Source: Agarivorans sp. Alg241-V36 (GTDB taxonomy: Bacteria > Pseudomonadota > Gammaproteobacteria > Enterobacterales > Celerinatantimonadaceae). From it: a stretch of 64,000 nt of DNA. The first letter of the stretch is position 1, and each line of letters starts with the position of its first letter. The stretch covers positions 372,289 to 436,288 of the forward strand of contig NZ_UNRE01000002.1 of the NCBI RefSeq assembly GCF_900537085.1, in the 5' to 3' direction. A program made the translations under genes and the position numbers. Of this stretch, positions 6,688 through 16,100 are shown piece by piece. The notes under the pieces are model-generated. The model saw only the letters and a list, made by a program, of their open reading frames with translations, was not told the DNA's origin and made no database searches.

Positions 6688-7365
6688 TTACTTAAAGAAT
6701 AGCTGGCTAAATGGATTAAGTAGCGATGCTAAGCCTGAAGTGAAATGCAGAGGTGCATCCAACAGGGTTAAACATAAGCAGTCTTGGTTAGCGGCTGTTC
6801 GCGGCGTATGTTTGTTTTGCGCATCTTGAATGATGAAGTCGCCCGGTACATAGGTGCCTGCATCGTCTATAAAAGTGCCAGCCAGTACTAGGGTTATTTC
6901 TTGTCCCTGATGGGTATGCTCTGGCAGGGCGCTGTCTTGATCCATGTAAATGAAGTTCATTTTGCTGTCACTTACTGCATCAACACGAGCACGTTGAATT
7001 TTACCTGGTAAACGCCCCCAAGGACCAATGTGCTGCGGGTGAGCTTGTAAGGCTCGGGGCAGCGGGAAGCGCTTATTGCCAAGGGTGATTTCTTGCTGCA
7101 AGGCTGGCTGAGAGCTTTCAATTACGCTGTCAGGGCTTTGTTGCATAATCATCGCTAACATCGAATCCAGTTCGTTGTTCATGGTCTCGGGCTGGGCTTG
7201 CTCAAGTTGAGTAGCCAACTTGAGTTCAGCAGCTTCAACGCGGCGGCGACATTCTGGGCAGTATTCCAAGTGAGCACTCACCATAATGCTCATTGCTGGG
7301 TCCAGTTGACCGGCAGCGTACAGTTCAAGGCTTTCTTCAGCCGGATGAAATTGAATGCTAGTCAT
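6688..7365 (-). CDS. chrR: ChrR-type zinc anti-sigma factor (cupin)
   Basis: 225 residues. The N-terminal anti-sigma domain has the zinc signature His7 ... HLEYCPECR (ligand set H-x3-C-x2-C). The C-terminal half (~110-215) is a cupin-like domain with EHTHQGQEITLVLAGTF and a following PGDFI strand. In Rhodobacter, ChrR holds the ECF sigma factor RpoE inactive and releases it on singlet oxygen or organic hydroperoxide. The start has a strong AAGGAGG site inside the 3' end of the sigma gene, and the two genes overlap by 8 bases, so translation is coupled and keeps sigma and anti-sigma in balance. Confidence 0.9.
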   Translation of the reverse strand: MTSIQFHPAEESLELYAAGQLDPAMSIMVSAHLEYCPECRRRVEAAELKLATQLEQAQPETMNNELDSMLAMIMQQSPDSVIESSQPALQQEITLGNKRFPLPRALQAHPQHIGPWGRLPGKIQRARVDAVSDSKMNFIYMDQDSALPEHTHQGQEITLVLAGTFIDDAGTYVPGDFIIQDAQNKHTPRTAANQDCLCLTLLDAPLHFTSGLASLLNPFSQLFFK

Positions 7366-7984
7366 CCAATACCTCCTTCATTTTCTTCAGCGCTAATCTA
7401 AGGCGACTTTTCACAGTGCCAAGCGGTAAGTTTAATATTTCAGACACTTGTTGTTGCGATTCACCGTGCAGGTAAACACGCCTTACGATATCTGCTTGTT
7501 CTTCTGGCAACTTGTCAATCAAATGTTTTAGCTCGTTGCTCACTAATTCTTGGTCTTCGGTCGACACTTTATCAGCGTCTTCTTCTTCACTTAGAATGGG
7601 CCACAAGTCATCGCCTTGAATCCAACTTTGCTGATGTTTACCTTTTCGCATCAAATCAAACTTTACGTTTCTTGATACCGAAAAAATCCAAGTCATCGCA
7701 TTGCCTTTGCTTGAATCGTAAAGCCCTGCTTTAAGCCATAGCTTGAGCATAGTTTCTTGCACCATCTCTAAGGCAAGAGATTCATCAACAAATTGTTTTC
7801 GAGCCAAGTTTAATAAGCGTGGCGCTACTTGGCGGAACAATAAGTCATAACTTTTGCGGCATTGCTCGCTGGCAATGTTTGCCAACAGCAGGGCGATGTC
7901 ATCGTCACTATTGGACTGAGCTACTTGACTAGCCATAGGTGTTTTCGGTCCACCGATTTTTGATACTGAACTGTGTATTTCCAT
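7358..7984 (-). CDS. rpoE: ECF sigma factor, ECF11 (RpoE/ChrR) type
   Basis: 208 residues with region 2 (~45-115: FRQVAPRLLNLARK, then the ALEMVQETMLKLW helix and MTWIFSVSRN) and region 4 (~145-205: LPEEQADIVRRVYL plus the GTVKSRLRLALKKM recognition helix). Partnered with ChrR, it belongs to the ECF11 group that answers photo-oxidative stress. It is not the envelope-stress RpoE of E. coli, so the symbol is used in the Rhodobacter sense. An in-frame ATG 48 bases downstream is an alternative start. A candidate self-recognised promoter lies at 8017-8044. Confidence 0.9.
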   Translation of the reverse strand: MEIHSSVSKIGGPKTPMASQVAQSNSDDDIALLLANIASEQCRKSYDLLFRQVAPRLLNLARKQFVDESLALEMVQETMLKLWLKAGLYDSSKGNAMTWIFSVSRNVKFDLMRKGKHQQSWIQGDDLWPILSEEEDADKVSTEDQELVSNELKHLIDKLPEEQADIVRRVYLHGESQQQVSEILNLPLGTVKSRLRLALKKMKEVLDD

Positions 7985-8016: not shown

Positions 8017-8044
8017 TTAACGAGCAAGGTGTGTAAAACGATCA
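8017..8044 (-). promoter_or_regulatory. Candidate ECF11 promoter of the sigma-chrR operon
   Basis: On the minus strand TGATCG (8044-8039), a 16-base spacer and CGTTAA (8022-8017) lie just upstream of the sigma ATG at 7984 and overlap the end of the LON-domain gene. The same TGATCK-N16-CGT arrangement precedes the divergent lipid operon, which suggests autoregulation. Confidence 0.6.
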
Positions 8045-8685
8045 CTTTGTCGCAAAATAAATCCTAAATAACGAATACATAAAGAAGCAGAGGGTGATTT
8101 AAGCAAGCGTTGCTTGGTACAAATGGGCAGTGGCAGTAGCTCTAGCCAACGCCAGCAGAGGGTTTTAACTTGGTCGCTTTGTACAGATTGCTCAAAGTTA
8201 GCTGTTTGCAATTCTGGATACTGTAAATTGATGTTAGCTAGGGCATTTTGCAGCGCAGCGGTATTTTTTTGTTTAGAGCAATCTGGCCATAGGTCAATTT
8301 TGTTCGCGCTCAGGGTAGGCGATACCCAGTTGGAGCAAAATCCTGGCTCATTCGAGGTGACCTTACCCCAATGAAGTATTTTAAACTCTACTTCAATTTG
8401 TGCCTTGCTAAGCCAATCTATATGGCTTACTTGAGCAAAGCTCACTAAGTCATTAGCCTGTACCGCACTATTTCCATCACTATCTTGAAAAGCTAGCCAC
8501 ACGCCGCCAGCTTTTTCTGCAGCGCGCAAACTGGCGATAAAAACCATGCCTTCACCCTTGATCCGCGCGAAGCGCTGCGGCATAAAGTGTTCGCGAGATA
8601 TCATTAGCGGAAAACAACTGTTACTGCTCAAGTAAACATTCCTAAATATGGGTGGTTTGTCATATATAACGTTAATAGTCGCCAA
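8017..8685 (-). CDS. LON substrate-binding-domain-like protein
   Basis: About 222 residues from a TTG start. The N-terminal part (PPIF...FPLMISREHFM) and the C-terminal helical stretch LCWRWLELLPLPICTKQRLL resemble stand-alone LON peptidase N-terminal (substrate-binding) domain proteins; there is no AAA or protease domain. I recall such proteins accompanying ECF11/ChrR loci in Vibrio and Shewanella, where their role is undefined. The sigma promoter overlaps its stop codon. The start is uncertain: a TTG at 8631 with AGGA upstream is an alternative but would cut the first strand of the domain. Confidence 0.55.
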   Translation of the reverse strand: MATINVIYDKPPIFRNVYLSSNSCFPLMISREHFMPQRFARIKGEGMVFIASLRAAEKAGGVWLAFQDSDGNSAVQANDLVSFAQVSHIDWLSKAQIEVEFKILHWGKVTSNEPGFCSNWVSPTLSANKIDLWPDCSKQKNTAALQNALANINLQYPELQTANFEQSVQSDQVKTLCWRWLELLPLPICTKQRLLKSPSASLCIRYLGFILRQSDRFTHLAR

Positions 8686-8694
8686 AAGGATGAA

Positions 8695-8722
8695 TGATCT
8701 TTCTTAATTTATTTGACGTACT
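8695..8722 (+). promoter_or_regulatory. Candidate ECF11 promoter of the lipid operon
   Basis: TGATCT (8695-8700), a 16-base spacer and CGTACT (8717-8722) precede the NTF2-like gene start at 8778. It matches the TGATC/CGT pattern and spacing of the site upstream of the sigma gene. Confidence 0.6.
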
Positions 8723-8777: not shown

Positions 8778-9218
8778 ATGAGTATCACGGCATCTTCACC
8801 GCATATCGTTCAGCAGCTAGAGCAGTTTTACACCGAGCTAGGTATGGCGCAGGTAGAGAGCCTGTCAGATATATATGCCGACGATATCGAGTTTATCGAC
8901 CCACTGCATCATCTTCACGGTTTGCAAGATTTACGCAGCTATTTCGAACATTTATTACAGAATACCACTCAATGCCATTTCGAATTTTACTCCCGGTTAA
9001 TAGCAGAAGGGGAGTTTAGTCTTACCTGGAAAATGCAGTTTGCTCACCCCAAGTTGGGCAATGGACGAATTCTTTCGCTCGATGGTATTAGTCACATCAA
9101 GTTTAACGACAAAATCTATTACCACCGCGATTACTACGACGTAAGTGCTATGTTGCACGACCACATTCCAGTAATTGGTTGGCTCTCTAAAAAACTTAAA
9201 AATGGACTAGCCCAATGA
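8778..9218 (+). CDS. NTF2-like (SnoaL-type) protein, first gene of the ECF operon
   Basis: 146 residues with the cone-shaped NTF2-like fold pattern: an N-terminal helix (EQFYTELGM), the LSDIYADDIEFIDPLHHLHG segment typical of SnoaL-like proteins at ~30-50, then a curved sheet ending in HIKFNDKIYYHRDYYD. Such proteins bind or isomerise small hydrophobic molecules. Here the gene leads a stress-lipid operon and overlaps the next gene by the four bases ATGA, so it is probably co-translated. A carrier or isomerase role on a fatty-acid intermediate is inference. Confidence 0.8.
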   Translation: MSITASSPHIVQQLEQFYTELGMAQVESLSDIYADDIEFIDPLHHLHGLQDLRSYFEHLLQNTTQCHFEFYSRLIAEGEFSLTWKMQFAHPKLGNGRILSLDGISHIKFNDKIYYHRDYYDVSAMLHDHIPVIGWLSKKLKNGLAQ

Positions 9219-9937
9219 ATATTCTCATCACCGGAGCTAGCTCAGGCATTGGTAAACAGCTCGCGCTAGATTATCAAAAGCTCGGACACAAAGTGTGGGG
9301 ACAAGGGCGTAATCAACAGCGTTTACAAGCCCTCACCGACCAAGGCATTACGCCGCTGCAAGTTGAGCTTAGCGATCTAGAACAAGTGCGTAGCAGCTTT
9401 GCCAGCCTACCCGCGATGGACTTAATTGTGTTGTGTGCCGGTAATTGTGAATACCTAGACCCACAGCGATTTGACGCTAAATTGTTCGAACGGGTGTGGC
9501 AAAGCAATGTGCTTACCATCGCTAACTGCTTAGATGCCCTGTGGGAAAACTTAAAGCCTGGTTCGCAATTGGCTTTAGTGGGCAGCCTTGCTCATTTATT
9601 ACCTTTTAGCCAAGCGGGTGCTTACGGCAGTAGCAAAGCGGCGGTGCATTACTTAGCTCAAGCCCTTGGTACCGATTTAGGCGACAAACAAGTTAGCGTT
9701 CATTGTATTCAACCGGGCTTTGTTAGAACTCCGCTTACCGACAAAAACAGCTTCGCTATGCCCAGTATTATTAGCCCCGAACAAGCCAGTCAATCAATCA
9801 TAAAAGGCCTAACTAAAGGTAAGGCGGTGATTAATTTCCCTAGCTTATTCAGTGGCTTTCTGCACATACTCAGTTGCTTGCCACATCGCTGGCAACAAAA
9901 TATCTGTCGCCGTTTAGCTCACAAGGAAGGAGCATAG
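9215..9937 (+). CDS. Short-chain dehydrogenase/reductase (SDR)
   Basis: 240 residues. The cofactor motif is TGASSGIGKQ at residues ~6-15, the NAG-equivalent is LCAGN near 74, and the catalytic residues are Ser of VGSLAH and YGSSKAA (Tyr-x3-Lys), followed by IQPGFVRTPL. It should be an NAD(P)H-dependent oxidoreductase. It overlaps the NTF2-like gene by four bases. SDRs of this type recur in ECF11 lipid operons, where the substrate is unknown; a hydroxylated or keto acyl chain is a reasonable guess. Confidence 0.9.
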   Translation: MNILITGASSGIGKQLALDYQKLGHKVWGQGRNQQRLQALTDQGITPLQVELSDLEQVRSSFASLPAMDLIVLCAGNCEYLDPQRFDAKLFERVWQSNVLTIANCLDALWENLKPGSQLALVGSLAHLLPFSQAGAYGSSKAAVHYLAQALGTDLGDKQVSVHCIQPGFVRTPLTDKNSFAMPSIISPEQASQSIIKGLTKGKAVINFPSLFSGFLHILSCLPHRWQQNICRRLAHKEGA

Positions 9938-9942
9938 ATAGA

Positions 9943-11196
9943 ATGAAAATAGCCATAATTGGAGCCGGCGTTTCCGGCATGACTTGTGCGCACTTATTAA
10001 AAGAGCAGCACGAAGTAACCCTACTCGAACAAAACGATTATTTAGGTGGCCACACTGCTACCAATAAAGTCACTATAGAGGGCAAAGAACACGCGGTTGA
10101 TACTGGCTTTATCGTGTTTAATGACCGCACCTACCCCTTATTTAACAAGCTATTGGCCAAGTTGGGCATCAAGGCTCAAGAAACCGAAATGAGCTTTAGT
10201 GTGGTAAACCCAGAGCTCAACTTGCAATACAATGGCCACGATTTAAATACCCTGTTTGCCCAGCGCAGTAATTTGCTCAAACCTAGTTTCTATAAGTTTA
10301 TAAATGAAATTCTGCGTTTTAATAAGCTAGCCAAAGAAGCCGTAGACATTGATACCGCAGTAAGCCTCGGCCAGTTTTTAGAGCAGCATCGCTTCTCGAG
10401 AATGTTCCAAGAGAACTATTTGCTGCCAATGGGCGCGGCTATTTGGTCATCTTCGCTAAATGGCATTATGCAGTTTCCGATGCAGTTTTTTGCCCGCTTC
10501 TTTGTCAACCATGGCTTGTTAGATGTAGCCAACCGTCCACAATGGTATGTGATTCCTGGCGGCTCAAAACAATACATCAAGCCCTTACTAGAAGGCTTAG
10601 ATGAGCAAATCCGCTTGAACAGCCAAGTGAGCAGCATTCAACGAGACGAGAACGGCGTAAGCATAGAGTGTAGCGACGGCTGGAAATGGCAGGGCGATGC
10701 AGTAATATTTGCCTGCCACAGTGACCAAGCCTTATCGGCACTTGGTGCACAAGCCAGTGACGACGAGCGCTCGGTATTAGGTAAACTCAAGTATCAGAAT
10801 AATGAAGTGATACTGCATACTGATGAGCGCTTGCTACCTAGCATTCATCGCGCTAGAGCCAGTTGGAATTACCTATTGCCTCCTAGTGGAGATAGAGGCG
10901 ACCGCTTAGCCAGCGTTACCTATGATATGAATCGTTTGCAGGGCTTAAGCGACGCGCCACAGTTTTGTGTAACCCTTAATCCTTTAGAGCCAATCGCCGA
11001 GGATAAAGTGATTAAACGTTTTAACTACATGCATCCGGTATTTTCCGTAGAAGGCCACCAAGCTCAACAACAACGCGACAGCATTTGTGGCCACAATCAA
11101 AGTTACTTTTGCGGGGCCTATTGGCACAACGGTTTTCATGAAGACGGAGTGCGCTCGGCGGTGGAGGTATGTCGTAAGTTTGGAGTGGACTTATGA
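9943..11196 (+). CDS. FAD-dependent amine-oxidase-like oxidoreductase (COG2907 type)
   Basis: 417 residues from the ATG at 9943, chosen for the AAGGAAGGAG site about 10 bases upstream. The N-terminus has the dinucleotide motif [15 protein letters not shown], the ribose-binding Glu in [11 protein letters not shown], and a [11 protein letters not shown] segment usual in this family. The C-terminus ([17 protein letters not shown]) matches the second FAD-contacting motif of the amine oxidase fold. Related proteins sit beside CFA-like methyltransferases in ECF11 regulons, and flavoprotein desaturation or oxidation of methylated acyl chains has been proposed. By context it is a candidate desaturase (inference). 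It overlaps the next gene by four bases. Confidence 0.85.
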
Positions 11197-11924
11197 ATAT
11201 AAAGCATTCGGCGATTGCCTTTGGTGATACTTTTCATCAACGTTTTGTGCCGCGCAAGCATGGCTTTAGTTATCGGCTTTATTACGCTTGGATAGATTTG
11301 GCCGAAGAACAAGCTGTGCAGCAAACGCTGCGCGGCTTTGGTCGCTTTTTACCTTGGTTTCGCTTAAAGGCGGGTGATTATTTGGGAAGCGAAAAAGGCA
11401 CAATTCGAGATAAAGCCTTACGCGCCCAGCAGCGCTTTCAAGCCGACTATCAAGCCAAGCAAGTGGTATTACTTGGTCAGCTGCGTTGTTTAGGTTGGTA
11501 CTTTAGCCCGGTTAATTTCGTGCTTTATGGCGACGGTGAAAAGTTCGATTACATGTTGGCAGAAGTGACCAACACCCCATGGAAGGAAAAACATCAATAT
11601 TGGCTCGATTTAAATGAGCTTAAAGATCACGATAAAACCTTTCATGTTTCCCCGTTCAACCCCATGGATATGCGCTATAACTGGCAAGTTAAATTAGTAC
11701 AGCAGCAAGTTAATATTGTGATTAACTGCTGGCGCCAGCAAAAGGAATTTAGTGCTGGCATAAATTTAATTAAGCAGCCATTAAACTCTTCTAGCCTTCG
11801 CCGCGTAATAAGTTCATACCCTTTAATGACTCTCAAAGTTGTTACTGGAATTTACTGGCAAGCATTGAAGCTTTGGATGAAAAAAGTCCCGTTTTATGGT
11901 CATCCAGCCAGTGCTAAAAAATAA
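11193..11924 (+). CDS. DUF1365 family protein
   Basis: 243 residues, typical for DUF1365 (COG3496). Recognisable features are the early [21 protein letters not shown] segment, the [12 protein letters not shown]-like stretch (here [16 protein letters not shown] near residue 110), the [15 protein letters not shown] motif and [12 protein letters not shown] near 155. The function is unknown. It almost always lies between the FAD oxidoreductase and the CFA-type methyltransferase, as here, implying a shared pathway on membrane lipids. Start overlaps the upstream stop by four bases. Confidence 0.9.
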
Positions 11925-11948
11925 TTAAAATTGCCCTAAGGAAAAACT

Positions 11949-13169
11949 ATGGCTACTGCAAAATCGCTTTCCTCTGCTTCAGTTTCCAGTGGTTTAGATT
12001 GGACCCGTCACCTTGTGTTAAAAACCTTTGATGGTTTAAAAGGCGGCGCTATCTTAATGAGTCAAACAGGCTACGAATCAGTTCATCTCGGTGAAGTTGA
12101 TCACCCCGACACGGTAGAGGTACATATTCTCGACTCTCAAGTTTTTTCGCGAATTTTGAAAGGTGGAAGCATCGCCGCCGGCGAAACCTACATGGAAGGT
12201 TTATGGCGCTGTTCTAATCTACACCAATTACTGCAACTCTTGGCCGACAACCAAGATCACCTAGACAGCCTAGACAGAAAGCTACACTGGTTTACCGACG
12301 CATGGTTTAAAGTGCAGCACTTCTTTCGCCGCAATAACAAACGCCAAGCCAAAAAGAACATTCTGGCTCATTACGACTTAGGTAATGACTTTTACCAGTC
12401 CTTCCTCGACCCACAAATGCAGTATTCTTCAGCCATTTTTGGCGGACAAGATATCACTTTAGCCGAGGCCCAAGACAATAAACTTAAACGTATTTGTGAG
12501 CAGTTGAAGCTCGAATCGGGTGACCACCTTTTGGAGATTGGAACCGGCTGGGGCGGCTTAGCCATGTACGCCGCTAGCCACTATGGCTGCAAAGTTACCA
12601 CTACAACTATCTCCGACAAGCAACACGCCCATGTGCTAGAAAAAGTCGCGGAGCGCAATCTCAGCCACTTAGTCACTGTGCTCAATAAAGACTACCGAGA
12701 CTTAGAAGGCCAATACGACAAGCTAGTGTCTATTGAGATGATCGAAGCCGTAGGAGAGAAGTTTTTGCCCGGCTTTGCCCAGGTGTGTGCCAACAGACTA
12801 AAGGCTGGTGGCATTATGCTGCTGCAAGCCATTACCATTGATGACCGCCGTTTTTCGGCCTACCGCAAAAGCGTCGACTTTATTCAGCAATATGTATTCC
12901 CTGGTGGCTTTTTACCGTCGCCCTCGTTGCTCAAGCAGTTATTCTCAAAGCAGGGATTACAATCATTACAACGTTTAGAAATCGGCATCGACTACGCCGA
13001 AACTCTACAGCACTGGCATCAACGGGTGCAGCAACAACACAACAATAACCAACACTTTGGTTTCGACGAACAGTTCTACCGCCTGTGGCATTTCTACTTC
13101 GCCTACTGCGAAGCAGGCTTTAGAAGCCACAACATCGGCACCGAACAACTCACCATGGTTAAGGCTTAA
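11949..13169 (+). CDS. CFA-synthase-like SAM methyltransferase (probably not a classic cyclopropanase)
   Basis: 406 residues: an N-terminal lipid-binding region (~1-110) and a Rossmann methyltransferase domain with AHYDLGNDFYQ and the SAM loop LEIGTGWGGLA, then EMIEAVGEKFLPG, PGGFLPSPS and YCEAGFRSHNIG. Compared from memory with E. coli Cfa, the bicarbonate ligands Cys139 and His266 are replaced: the QYSCxY site reads QYSSAIF and the LLHTI site reads LLQAI. The Glu239 equivalent is kept. The general base is therefore altered, and the enzyme may stop at a methylated olefin, as reported for UfaM-type enzymes of furan fatty acid synthesis. It has 24 bases of spacing after DUF1365. Confidence 0.85.
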   Translation: MATAKSLSSASVSSGLDWTRHLVLKTFDGLKGGAILMSQTGYESVHLGEVDHPDTVEVHILDSQVFSRILKGGSIAAGETYMEGLWRCSNLHQLLQLLADNQDHLDSLDRKLHWFTDAWFKVQHFFRRNNKRQAKKNILAHYDLGNDFYQSFLDPQMQYSSAIFGGQDITLAEAQDNKLKRICEQLKLESGDHLLEIGTGWGGLAMYAASHYGCKVTTTTISDKQHAHVLEKVAERNLSHLVTVLNKDYRDLEGQYDKLVSIEMIEAVGEKFLPGFAQVCANRLKAGGIMLLQAITIDDRRFSAYRKSVDFIQQYVFPGGFLPSPSLLKQLFSKQGLQSLQRLEIGIDYAETLQHWHQRVQQQHNNNQHFGFDEQFYRLWHFYFAYCEAGFRSHNIGTEQLTMVKA

Positions 13170-13172
13170 GTC

Positions 13173-13646
13173 ATGCAATGGCCAGTGTTAGTGCTGTTTA
13201 AGCTTAACTGGCTTGCTGCCTTTTTTTGGGGGCAGCAAGCAGTGGTATTTATGGCGCTTGGCGTACTGGGCTTAGTGGCTTTGCAAGTTCGCCGCTACCA
13301 GTGGGCAGTGCTTGTTCCTTGCGCCATGTTAAGCGTGGTGGGGGTTATTTTAGATTTTAGCCTGGTCAAAATGGGTGTGCTCAGTTTTGCTTCACAAGGT
13401 TTACCACTGTTTATGATGCTGCTGTGGGCCAGTTTTGCCTTGTTATTGCCAAGTTTAGCCAGCTTCTCTAAACCTTTTATGCCCTTGTTTGTGGCGGTAA
13501 TGGGGCCGGTTTCTTACTACCTTGCCAGCTTAGCGCAGGTATTCGCGATACAGCCCGATGCAATATTAGGCCTACTTATTTTGTTTCCTTTGTGGGCCGG
13601 TTTTGCTTACTTGGCCAATTCGCTATTGGAGAAACGTTATGTTTAA
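13173..13646 (+). CDS. DUF2878 membrane protein
   Basis: 157 residues, nearly all hydrophobic, with about five membrane segments and few charges beyond the RRYQW loop. Size and composition fit DUF2878 (a short inner-membrane family seen with CFA-like genes and ECF sigma loci). It starts three bases after the methyltransferase stop. Function unknown; the membrane setting suits a protein acting on phospholipid acyl chains. Confidence 0.75.
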   Translation: MQWPVLVLFKLNWLAAFFWGQQAVVFMALGVLGLVALQVRRYQWAVLVPCAMLSVVGVILDFSLVKMGVLSFASQGLPLFMMLLWASFALLLPSLASFSKPFMPLFVAVMGPVSYYLASLAQVFAIQPDAILGLLILFPLWAGFAYLANSLLEKRYV

Positions 13647-14160
13647 AGCCAGATTGTTCAACGCTTTATCATTCAAATCTTTGCTGTTAGCGAGCCTGTT
13701 ATTGAGCTTTGCTAGCCAAGCAGAAACCCAAATGCAGTTGGTGGGTGACGCAAAATTACAGGTATTGTTTTGGCCCATTTATAAAGTGAGTTTGCATAGC
13801 CCCGATGGGCTTTACCAGCAAAACCGCTACCCCATGACCCTTACCATTGATTACTTAAGAAAAATTAAACGTAACAAGCTATTAGATGCCACTCAAGATG
13901 AATGGCAGCGCCTTGGCGTATGTGAGCAAGCGCCTTGCGAGCAATGGTTAGCAGAGCTATCGGTATTGTGGCCAGATCTAAAAAAAGGTGACCAACTTAA
14001 ACTGGTGGCCGATTCCGCCGACCAAGGGCGTTTTTACCTTAATGGCCAGTTGCTTGGCTCGTTGCAAGACAAGCTTTTTAGTCAGCATTTCTTAGGCATC
14101 TGGCTATCTGAAGATAGCCGTTTTCCTAAACAGCAGCGTAAATTAGTGGGTGCAAACTAA
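13639..14160 (+). CDS. Secreted chalcone-isomerase-like protein
   Basis: 173 residues from the ATG at 13639, which overlaps the DUF2878 gene by 8 bases. The N-terminus is a signal peptide (basic start, Leu-rich core, FASQAE cleavage). The mature part has the chalcone_3-type pattern: LVGDAKLQVLFWPIYKVSLHSPDG, LTIDYLRKIKRNKLL and a C-terminal FSQHFLGIWLSEDSR strand-helix. This fold binds fatty acids in some members. A periplasmic lipid-binding or lipid-processing role as the last gene of the ECF lipid operon is likely but inferred. Confidence 0.8.
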   Translation: MFKARLFNALSFKSLLLASLLLSFASQAETQMQLVGDAKLQVLFWPIYKVSLHSPDGLYQQNRYPMTLTIDYLRKIKRNKLLDATQDEWQRLGVCEQAPCEQWLAELSVLWPDLKKGDQLKLVADSADQGRFYLNGQLLGSLQDKLFSQHFLGIWLSEDSRFPKQQRKLVGAN

Positions 14161-14162
14161 GC

Positions 14163-14819
14163 CTAGCTAGCTTGTTCAACACATTCATTAATCACTTGCA
14201 GCAAGGTTTCAACCGGTTGTGCGCCAGATAATAAATAGCGATTATTGAAGATAAAAGCTGGCACCGCTCTAATGTTTTGATTCTGCCATTGCTGCTTGCT
14301 ATCTCTTACCGCCTCAACATACATTTCATCTACTAATACTCGCTCGGCCAGCTCTCGGCCTAGGCCAATGCTTTCAACAATATCCAGCAAAGTATTTCTA
14401 TCGGAGGGATCTTTAGCCTGGCTAAAGTAAGCGTCAAACAAGGCCAGTTTTAGCTCGGTTTGTTTACCATAGGGCTGAGCCCAATGCAGCAGCTGGTGGG
14501 CTTCAAAGGTATTGTAAATACGCGACTCGGGGCTAAAGTGGAAACTAAAACCGAGTTCTTCACCCAAGCTTTTTAATTGGTCTCTTACCGCTTCACTTTG
14601 CTCAACGGTGCTGCCGTATTTTTCTTGAATATGTTCGCGCAGGTTTTGTCCTTCGCTTGGCATGTTGGGGTTTAACTCAAAGGGGTGCCATTCAATATGT
14701 GGGCGAATATCCTCGCTTAATTGACTAAGTGCTTGCTGCAAACGCAAATAACCCACAATGCACCAAGGGCACACCACATCAGACACAATATCTATGCGCA
14801 AAGAAATACCAGCAGACAT
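14163..14819 (-). CDS. FrnE-like DsbA-family oxidoreductase
   Basis: 218 residues of the FrnE/2-hydroxychromene-isomerase branch of the DsbA superfamily. The active motif is Cys17-Pro-Trp-Cys20 at the end of the first strand. Then come the helical insert with FELNPNMPSEGQNL, the RIYNTFEAHQLLHWA segment and the cis-Pro loop in IRAVPAFIFNN. There is no signal peptide, so it is cytoplasmic; relatives contribute to oxidative-stress tolerance. It is convergent with the ECF lipid operon and may belong to the same stress response, but no ECF-type promoter was seen upstream. Confidence 0.85.
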   Translation of the reverse strand: MSAGISLRIDIVSDVVCPWCIVGYLRLQQALSQLSEDIRPHIEWHPFELNPNMPSEGQNLREHIQEKYGSTVEQSEAVRDQLKSLGEELGFSFHFSPESRIYNTFEAHQLLHWAQPYGKQTELKLALFDAYFSQAKDPSDRNTLLDIVESIGLGRELAERVLVDEMYVEAVRDSKQQWQNQNIRAVPAFIFNNRYLLSGAQPVETLLQVINECVEQAS

Positions 14820-15002
14820 AACTTACCCCTCGACTAAACCAGCTTAGAGTATGCGGAGTTGCCGGTAAATTGGCAACCACCGCACTAAATCAGGCGTAGG
14901 CTTATTTGTCGCTGGTGCAATAATGATTTGTTGTTTTTGATCTAAATAGATAGCTGGCGAGTTGCTATTATGCTGGCAGTTAAATTTAGAGGAATCTCTA
15001 CC

Positions 15003-16100
15003 ATGAGCACTTCATTGTTCGACACTATCAAGCTTGGCACTCACACCCTAAACAATCGCGTGGTTATGCCACCAATGACTCGCTCGCGTGCCAGTCAGCC
15101 GGGGGATGTTGCCAACCAAATGATGGCAAGCTACTACGCACAACGTGCCAGCGCAGGTTTAATCGTAGCCGAGGGCACTCAAATCTCGCCTATGGGTAAA
15201 GGCTACGCATGGACACCGGGCATTTATAGTGACGAGCAAATCGCCGGCTGGAAGCAGGTTACAGAGGCAGTACATGCCAAAGGCGGCACCATATTTGCCC
15301 AACTGTGGCACGTAGGACGAGTGACTCACCCAGACAACATTAACGGCGAACAGCCTATCTCATCGTCTGCCATTAAAGCCGAAAACGTAAAAGTATTTAT
15401 TGATAACGGCAGCGACGAGCCGGGCTTTGTTGATGTAGTTACTCCACGCGAAATGAGCCAACAAGACATTGATGAAGTGATTCAACAGTTCCGCCAAGCA
15501 GCACTTAATGCCATTGCGGCAGGCTTCGACGGCATTGAGCTACACGCCGCCAACGGTTATTTGATCAACCAGTTTATTGATTCAGAATCGAATCAGCGTA
15601 GCGACCAATACGGTGGCAGTTTAGCCAACCGCCTGCGCTTTTTAGATGAAGTAGTTGCCGCCATGGTCGACGCCATTGGTGCCGAGCGAGTAGGCGTACG
15701 CTTAGCTCCGCTCACTACCTTAAATGGCACTGTAGACGCTAAGCCAGAAGAAACCTACACCGCCGCGGCAGCGCTGCTAAATAAACACAATATCGTTTAT
15801 TTGCACATTGCCGAAGTAGACTGGGACGACGCGCCAGAAACACCAAAAGCCTTTAAACAAGCATTACGAGAAGCCTTTAAAGGCGTGCTTATTTACGCAG
15901 GCCGTTATAAAGCCGACAGCGCTAAACAAGCCATAGAGGAAGGCCTTGCCGACATGATTGGCTTTGGTCGCCCCTTTGTCGCCAACCCCGATCTACCGGC
16001 GCGACTAGAGCACGGCTACCCATTGGCCGAACATGATCCAAACAGCTTGTTTGGCGGTGGAGAAAAAGGCCTAACGGACTACCCAAGTTATAAGGCCTAG
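15003..16100 (+). CDS. Old yellow enzyme family alkene reductase (NemA-like)
   Basis: 365 residues from the ATG at 15003 with GAGGA upstream. A single FMN-binding TIM barrel: VMPPMTRSRAS near residue 22, LWHVGRVTHP near 101, substrate-binding His181 and Asn184 with Tyr186 as proton donor (ELHAANGYLINQF), and the phosphate-binding end GFGRPFVANPDLP. It should reduce activated C=C bonds of enones, nitroesters or maleimides with NAD(P)H. Such enzymes are often induced by electrophiles. A TGATCT box lies at 14938 but without the CGT partner at the right distance. Confidence 0.92.
   Translation: MSTSLFDTIKLGTHTLNNRVVMPPMTRSRASQPGDVANQMMASYYAQRASAGLIVAEGTQISPMGKGYAWTPGIYSDEQIAGWKQVTEAVHAKGGTIFAQLWHVGRVTHPDNINGEQPISSSAIKAENVKVFIDNGSDEPGFVDVVTPREMSQQDIDEVIQQFRQAALNAIAAGFDGIELHAANGYLINQFIDSESNQRSDQYGGSLANRLRFLDEVVAAMVDAIGAERVGVRLAPLTTLNGTVDAKPEETYTAAAALLNKHNIVYLHIAEVDWDDAPETPKAFKQALREAFKGVLIYAGRYKADSAKQAIEEGLADMIGFGRPFVANPDLPARLEHGYPLAEHDPNSLFGGGEKGLTDYPSYKA

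Follow-up and report, generated by a model that had tools for sequence, protein, structure and literature searches.

The analyzed window is a 64,000-nucleotide stretch of Agarivorans sp. Alg241-V36 (contig NZ_UNRE01000002.1, positions 372,289 to 436,288), in which we studied a seven-gene operon and the divergent sigma factor and ChrR anti-sigma factor pair beside it, a locus that probably serves the stress-induced synthesis of furan fatty acids. The list of open reading frames (ORFs) of the window shows seven of them on the + strand spanning 8778-14160, and all seven Pfam assignments exceed their curated cut-offs. The first gene (8778-9218) encodes an NTF2/SnoaL-like protein (SnoaL_2) and overlaps by 4 bases a gene (9215-9937) encoding a short-chain dehydrogenase/reductase (SDR; adh_short), whose translation keeps the TGxxxGIG and YxxxK motifs of SDRs. 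They are followed by a gene (9943-11196) for an Amino_oxidase family protein, a flavin oxidase of the UfaD type and predicted methyl-fatty-acid desaturase, which starts with ATG, an in-frame TTG being also present 23 codons upstream. It overlaps by 4 bases the gene of a DUF1365 protein (11193-11924; 222 bits in relation to a cut-off of 25), a predicted furan-ring-forming oxygenase of the UfaO type. After a gap of 24 bases lies the gene of a CMAS family protein (11949-13169; 278 bits), a predicted S-adenosylmethionine-dependent acyl methyltransferase of the UfaM type, and, after 3 more bases, that of a hydrophobic, probably membrane, DUF2878 protein (13173-13646). The latter overlaps by 8 bases the last gene (13639-14160), which encodes a chalcone-isomerase-like protein (Chalcone_3), probably exported, with a signal-peptide-like N-terminus as judged by eye from the translation. 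The ORF and Pfam calls bear out the tight seven-gene operon, with overlaps of 4, 4, and 8 bases, described in a first-pass annotation made from the sequence. In the source genome, the operon copy is the sole match to DUF1365 and the operon methyltransferase is the sole full-length CMAS protein, the next match covering part of the profile at 36.6 bits.

Three genes on the − strand precede the operon. The first encodes the ChrR anti-sigma factor (6688-7365), with a zinc-finger-like N-terminal domain and a cupin (Pfam zf-HC2 and Cupin_7), which matches TIGR02451 at 194.8 bits (cut-off 124.5). It overlaps by 8 bases the gene of its partner, an extracytoplasmic function (ECF) sigma factor (7358-7984; Sigma70_r2 and r4_2), and the pair is divergent from the operon. 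A gene in the same orientation as this pair (8017-8685) encodes a probable LON-substrate-binding-domain-like protein; it has no Pfam match of its own, and sub-threshold LON_substr_bdg matches were obtained in four of five relatives. The first operon gene is preceded by an ECF11-type promoter, TGATC-N17-CGTA (8695-8720, + strand), whose boxes and spacing are identical in the window and seven relatives, of which six are congeners and the seventh belongs to the same family; in the more distant of these seven the intergenic sequence around the promoter has diverged, while the sigma boxes were kept. Across the 139 homologous operons described below, a sigma site with a spacing of 16-18 lies within 250 bases upstream at 34 (1.6 expected from the same loci), and a looser pattern at 38 (5.6 expected). 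The locus therefore carries the features of an ECF11 system, an ECF sigma factor with an adjacent zinc-finger/cupin chrR and a TGATC-N17/18-CGTA-type promoter on the operon, and the ECF control that had been proposed is supported by the conserved sigma site and the divergent sigma-ChrR pair. Genome-wide promoter counting was dropped as evidence, as the pattern is not enriched. A loose-pattern scan also gave a possible autoregulatory site, TGATC-N17-CGT (8020-8044, − strand), about 35 bases before the sigma gene, which is only suggestive of autoregulation, being one of five loose matches in the window. A photolyase gene located elsewhere in the source genome shows a looser sigma site about 35 bases before its likely ATG. 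The sole DUF3833 gene of this genome (L368, C6:92722-93207) lies outside the operon and no matching sigma site was found at its locus.

DUF1365 was found in 153 of 398 genomes sampled across the phylum, and wide loci were analyzed for 139 of them; these do not include 11 further loci, genome G067 and two weak matches. Neighbors were counted up to 7.5 kb from DUF1365, using profiles for which 39 of these loci, window included, supplied part of the sequences. UfaD is present near DUF1365 in all 139 loci, CMAS in 123, the SDR in 106 (102 at a stricter score), NTF2 in 70, ChrR in 69, sigma in 67, DUF3833 in 53, photolyase in 45, the chalcone-like protein in 35, MFS_2 in 33, DUF2878 in 19 (with a weak profile built from eight sequences) and the LON-like protein in eight. 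At stricter scores, contiguous same-strand runs show the order UfaD-UfaO in 127 loci, UfaD-UfaO-CMAS in 103 and NTF2-SDR-UfaD-UfaO-CMAS in 54, and this recurrence of gene order is far beyond chance. DUF1365 genes are also carried by plasmid records (H8, H27-H31, H33, and H34), among them one of 98 kb from Aeromonas and seven of about 166-302 kb from Acinetobacter, and the system may thus be mobile. In the congener G402, the UfaD homologue (L253 6090-7342) falls into two ORFs that lie in different reading frames, either a broken gene or an assembly error.

The three central families of the operon are those of a characterized pathway. In Rhodobacter sphaeroides and Rhodopseudomonas palustris, furan synthesis starts with the methylation of cis-vaccenoyl chains by UfaM; UfaD then introduces a second double bond into the methyl alkene, giving 11-methyl-10t,12t-18:2, from which the DUF1365 protein UfaO makes the furan using O2 (PMC7380195; here and below, published systems are described from excerpts of the papers cited). 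RPA2571-2570-2569 of R. palustris, which are ufaD-ufaO-ufaM and are necessary and sufficient, show the same three families in the same gene order as the window, and this species adds FufM (RPA0924), which leads to a dimethyl furan (PMC7380195). As in the window, the R. sphaeroides operon RSP1091-1087, which adjoins rpoE-chrR and has an RpoE promoter, encodes UfaD, UfaO and an SDR; unlike the window, ufaM (RSP2144) is located elsewhere, next in number to the photolyase RSP2143 (PMC7380195, PMC3818230). Homologues of RSP_1090 downstream of RSP_1091 were reported in 337 bacterial genomes (PMC3818230). In the relatives syntenic with R. sphaeroides, MFS_2 and DUF3833 replace the NTF2, DUF2878, and chalcone-like genes of the window. 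The window UfaD is 36-40% identical to 16 homologues found in operons laid out like RSP1091-1087, which show, in our own ORF calls, ChrR-sigma, UfaD, UfaO, two further genes (in one of the 16, MFS_2 and DUF3833) and an SDR, separated by small gaps. Layout and sizes are as printed for R. sphaeroides, so orthology is supported via these syntenic relatives. Furthermore, across species the most conserved part of the regulon is a core of about eight genes that includes rpoE-chrR and the furan acid genes, the sigmaE-ChrR system is thought to be older than the split of alpha- and gammaproteobacteria, and the turnover of ChrR under singlet oxygen requires the furan acid genes (PMC6852236).

Similar loci have been printed for gammaproteobacteria. 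AXA69_RS13645-RS13670 of Aeromonas salmonicida encode NTF2, SDR, FAD oxidoreductase, DUF1365, cfa and DUF2878 in the order of the window, and these six genes change together with ChrR and a LON-domain gene; the published list names no chalcone-like gene, and its authors state that there is no experimental information on function (PMC10012899). The RpoE2 regulon of Shewanella oneidensis (SO_3386-SO_3374) contains a ChrR-sigma pair and a cfa gene in an RpoE2-type operon, and TGATC-N17-CGTA sites, which the window promoter fits, precede rpoE2, the LON-domain gene and the operon with phrB and cfa; its photolyase lies inside the operon, whereas that of our source genome lies elsewhere with a similar site (PMC4336711). 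In Pseudomonas syringae, PSPTO_1121-1116 group a photolyase, an SDR, an amine oxidase, the RSP_1090 homologue and cfa in one locus, with identities of 34-39% to the R. sphaeroides genes, and the published gene table shows no DUF2878 or chalcone-like gene (PMC5507510). In Halomonas sp. YLGW01, ufaM is consecutive with ufaD and ufaO and the strain also has a separate cfa; this ufaM yielded 11-methyloctadec-12-enoate in Escherichia coli (PMC12089945). In Vibrio cholerae, blue light induces the putative cfa gene VC1122, and of 222 genes responding to blue light 159 were no longer regulated when ChrR was missing (PMC5241685). In addition, the reference list of PMC7380195 has a title on furan acids from Shewanella putrefaciens.

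These comparisons support the furan fatty acid synthesis suggested in the first-pass annotation, since by family and gene order its flavin adenine dinucleotide (FAD) oxidase matches UfaD, its DUF1365 protein UfaO, and its methyltransferase UfaM. The same annotation considered the operon the best candidate for an undescribed pathway and gave three of its seven families as without known function. DUF1365 does have one, being the UfaO family published in 2020 (PMC7380195). Nor is the pathway undescribed: UfaD, UfaO, and UfaM have been characterized in R. sphaeroides and R. palustris (PMC7380195), and matching loci are in print for A. salmonicida (PMC10012899), P. syringae (PMC5507510) and, as the cfa-phrB operon, S. 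oneidensis (PMC4336711). The core pathway and regulon were already known, and the window operon is a well-supported new instance of them.

The methyltransferase is the operon member whose family also includes cyclopropane fatty acid (CFA) synthases, in which Glu239, His266, and Tyr317 of E. coli Cfa are the bicarbonate ligands (PMC11387697). In the alignment with E. coli Cfa (b1661), Glu239 and Tyr317 are common to both proteins; however, His240 is replaced by Ala and His266 by Gln in the window protein, which thus shows an incomplete set of bicarbonate ligands. Positions 239, 240, 266, and 317, in E. coli Cfa numbering, were used as a signature. Among the 94 entries of a first set, in which E. 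coli Cfa occurs twice, 83 sequences show E-A-Q-Y, 10 show E-H-H-Y and one shows E-R-Q-Y, while a wide set of 138 CMAS proteins contains 118 E-A-Q-Y and 20 E-H-H-Y sequences, E. coli Cfa included. A FastTree phylogeny of 144 sequences, generated after removing the diagnostic columns, places the 118 E-A-Q-Y proteins, among them that of the window, in one clade with a support of 0.995 and none of the 26 E-H-H-Y proteins inside. Also in this clade are nine solitary methyltransferases of Rhodobacteraceae-type genomes, encoded away from the UfaO operon, a tenth one having been left out of the tree owing to its length; a neighbor was tested at six of these 10 solitary loci and was a photolyase at all six, as in RSP2143-2144. 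Nor does the window protein reach the curated cut-off of any NCBIfam CFA model (best score 272 bits vs. 400 required). According to clade and to the candidate signature derived here, the methyltransferase is predicted to be UfaM-like and not Cfa-like, which further backs the UfaM assignment.

Two other markers were dropped. Plain identity barely separates the two types, and Cys139 is variable among the 20 E-H-H-Y proteins (Cys in 10, Ser in eight, Ala in one and Gly in one) and is present in one E-A-Q-Y protein. Four Rhodobacteraceae-type genomes (G115, G205, G235, and G319) show two E-A-Q-Y methyltransferases, one beside UfaO/UfaD and the other elsewhere, which suggests a second substrate or redundancy. 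Furthermore, at loci L270, L272-L279, and L294 a second, low-scoring CMAS protein of the kind that carries E-H-H-Y is found near the UfaD-UfaO-UfaM trio.

From the replacement of His266 by Gln and of the neighboring His240 by Ala, we infer that UfaM-type enzymes may stop at the alkene and form no cyclopropane; this outcome would be expected if the enzyme no longer had the His266-bicarbonate base and the proton were released from the next carbon of the chain. The furan-forming step was considered from published masses and from a structural model. The methyl esters of the diene and the furan have masses of 308.2 and 322.2 (PMC7380195), a gain of one oxygen and a loss of two hydrogens, so that the conversion of diene and O2 to furan and water needs no outside reductant. 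On this redox balance, UfaO need not use NAD(P)H. No reductant had to be added for furan formation in the published assays, although their authors suppose one in the wheat germ extract (PMC7380195). In a limited collection of literature, we found no statement of this bicarbonate-loss mechanism or of a redox-balanced furan step. The AlphaFold2 model of the window UfaO (mean predicted local distance difference test, pLDDT, 75.8) is strand-rich with a long C-terminal helix; residues 145-154 are below pLDDT 50, though K148, S153, and P154 are invariant. A Foldseek search of the PDB with this model gave nothing at E ≤ 0.001, its top-ranked matches being the weak ones to YwiB (3.7e-3) and the fatty-acid-binding-like Ycf58 (4.3e-3, TM-score 0.34), no cofactor was readable from the model, and a phmmer search for a solved DUF1365 relative gave none convincing (best E 0.87). 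The 139 UfaO sequences share a single invariant histidine, H15, and therefore no classical iron-binding triad stands out.

Taken together, gene content, family membership, conserved order, methyltransferase signature and clade, and the conserved promoter make it highly probable that the locus is an ECF11 (sigmaE-ChrR) operon that responds to singlet oxygen or peroxide stress by converting chains of existing phospholipids to a methylated furan fatty acid. A DUF1365 protein is present, a UfaD-type oxidase lies beside it, and the methyltransferase is of the UfaM type by signature and clade. By analogy with the published enzymes and regulators, ChrR would keep the sigma factor bound, singlet oxygen or organic peroxide would release it, and the free sigma factor would then transcribe the operon from 8695-8720. 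The UfaM-type methyltransferase would then convert a cis-monounsaturated chain (cis-vaccenate in R. sphaeroides) into a methyl-branched trans-alkene, the UfaD-type flavin oxidase would turn this methyl alkene into a conjugated methyl diene, and the UfaO-type DUF1365 protein would form the furan from diene and O2. The furan acid, reportedly an antioxidant and second messenger, may feed back on ChrR turnover, while the NTF2-like protein, SDR, DUF2878 protein and chalcone-isomerase-like protein would be conserved accessories, probably acting after or around furan formation.

Several results weigh against this assignment. The window UfaO is only 27-30% identical to its syntenic relatives, or 26-33% in another comparison, and the link to the UfaM, UfaD, and UfaO of R. 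sphaeroides and R. palustris runs via syntenic relatives, family and gene order, not direct alignment. Among the best 80 of at least 579 loci matched by UfaD homologues of syntenic operons, none carries a title of R. sphaeroides or R. palustris. The window methyltransferase shows 35-38% identity to the nine solitary UfaM-type proteins and 33% to E. coli Cfa, and the UfaO-linked CMAS protein of L116 (genome G067), 30% identical to it, carries E-R-Q-Y. With our own CMAS profile, the 118 E-A-Q-Y proteins of the wide set score above 400 bits and the other 19 below, a split that is not independent of the signature, as the profile derives mostly from UfaO-linked proteins. Sixteen of the 139 loci are without any CMAS gene, 11 of them Rhodobacteraceae-type with a methyltransferase elsewhere in the genome, and presence is patchy, with a methyltransferase match in 30 of 40 close relatives and none in one of five same-family genomes. 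As for the promoter, the strict sigma site is missing from 105 of the 139 upstream regions, and the pattern is enriched neither in the window (two vs. 0.74 expected, a count of two being reached in 17 of 100 shuffles) nor across the genome (30 vs. 83 in a reversed control). Cyclic acids were also reported in the E. coli host carrying the Halomonas ufaM (PMC12089945).

Alternatively, the operon could make ordinary cyclopropane fatty acids, its CMAS protein being a stress-induced CFA synthase. The protein belongs to the same family as E. coli Cfa, with 33% identity to it, no other full-length CMAS match exists in the source genome, and genes of this kind are annotated cfa in the papers on V. cholerae (PMC5241685), S. 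oneidensis (PMC4336711) and A. salmonicida (PMC10012899); however, the two replaced histidines, the low scores on the NCBIfam CFA models, the separate clade and the steady coupling to UfaD and UfaO make this most unlikely. The flavoprotein and DUF1365 count in turn against a pathway to 10-methyl branched saturated fatty acids by methyl transfer and flavoprotein reduction, like that of the actinobacterial pair of methyltransferase and FAD protein, TmsA/TmsB. The window flavoprotein is an amine-oxidase relative of LkcE, whereas TmsA belongs to another FAD family, and DUF1365 is not known to have a part in that pathway. The actinobacterial system likewise pairs a CMAS-type methyltransferase with an FAD protein, but its methyltransferases were chosen for a conserved Cfa bicarbonate site (PMC7791843), which is changed here. 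With neither that site nor a TmsA-type FAD protein in the operon, this reading is barely credible. The four accessory genes could also mean that the UfaM-UfaD-UfaO trio makes an intermediate that their products convert to a different oxygenated lipid, the end product then not being the known 9M5 furan acid. The NTF2-SDR-UfaD-UfaO-CMAS order of 54 loci and the preserved SDR motifs would fit such a conversion; however, single deletions of RSP1087, RSP1088, and RSP1089, three other operon genes of R. sphaeroides, SDR included, left the fatty acid profile of a chrR deletion unchanged (PMC7380195), in a deletion set that did not include NTF2-like, DUF2878, or chalcone-like proteins, and we consider it highly unlikely. 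The furan fatty acid reading is preferred.

The same dispensability of single genes, SDR included, does not back the part in the chemistry that the first-pass annotation gave to the reductase and the lipid-binding folds (PMC7380195). The conservation of the SDR, NTF2-like, DUF2878, and chalcone-like genes nevertheless argues for a real role. As the redox sum leaves no need for a reductase in furan formation, the SDR may have its substrate elsewhere, perhaps among oxidized furan lipids, and we suggest with low confidence that the accessory proteins work on such lipids or move lipids within the envelope. Furan rings react with singlet oxygen to give dioxo-enes. A broader proposal, speculative and on balance unlikely, is that the accessory set, with DUF3833 or MFS_2 in relatives, forms a second half of the system that services furan lipids after singlet oxygen, with reduction of the dioxo-ene chains left by ring opening and transfer of lipids across the envelope, which would make the furan a recyclable membrane antioxidant; jointly, the alkene outcome of UfaM would come from the lost histidine ligand of bicarbonate, and UfaO would be an oxygenase with neither an external reductant nor a recognizable cofactor site.

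Beyond the operon, a DsbA-like gene (14163-14819, − strand) converges on it, and a gene for an old-yellow-enzyme-like alkene reductase (14970-16100, + strand) lies just beyond, both named by eye. ORFs matching this pair in size and place are present in three close relatives (L248-L250) and absent in L252. Old-yellow-enzyme-like reductases act on unsaturated carbonyls, and a link of this alkene reductase to oxidized furan lipids is conceivable.

The operon that papers on marine gammaproteobacteria have labelled by its cfa gene is now tied to furan fatty acid synthesis. Ala240 together with Gln266, in E. coli Cfa numbering, is a candidate short sequence test to tell UfaM-type methyltransferases from cyclopropane synthases; if the signature holds for the characterized UfaM proteins, annotations would be corrected and predictions on lipids would become testable. 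If the accessory genes do handle oxidized furan lipids, furan acids would be a renewable membrane antioxidant, and not a one-shot scavenger.

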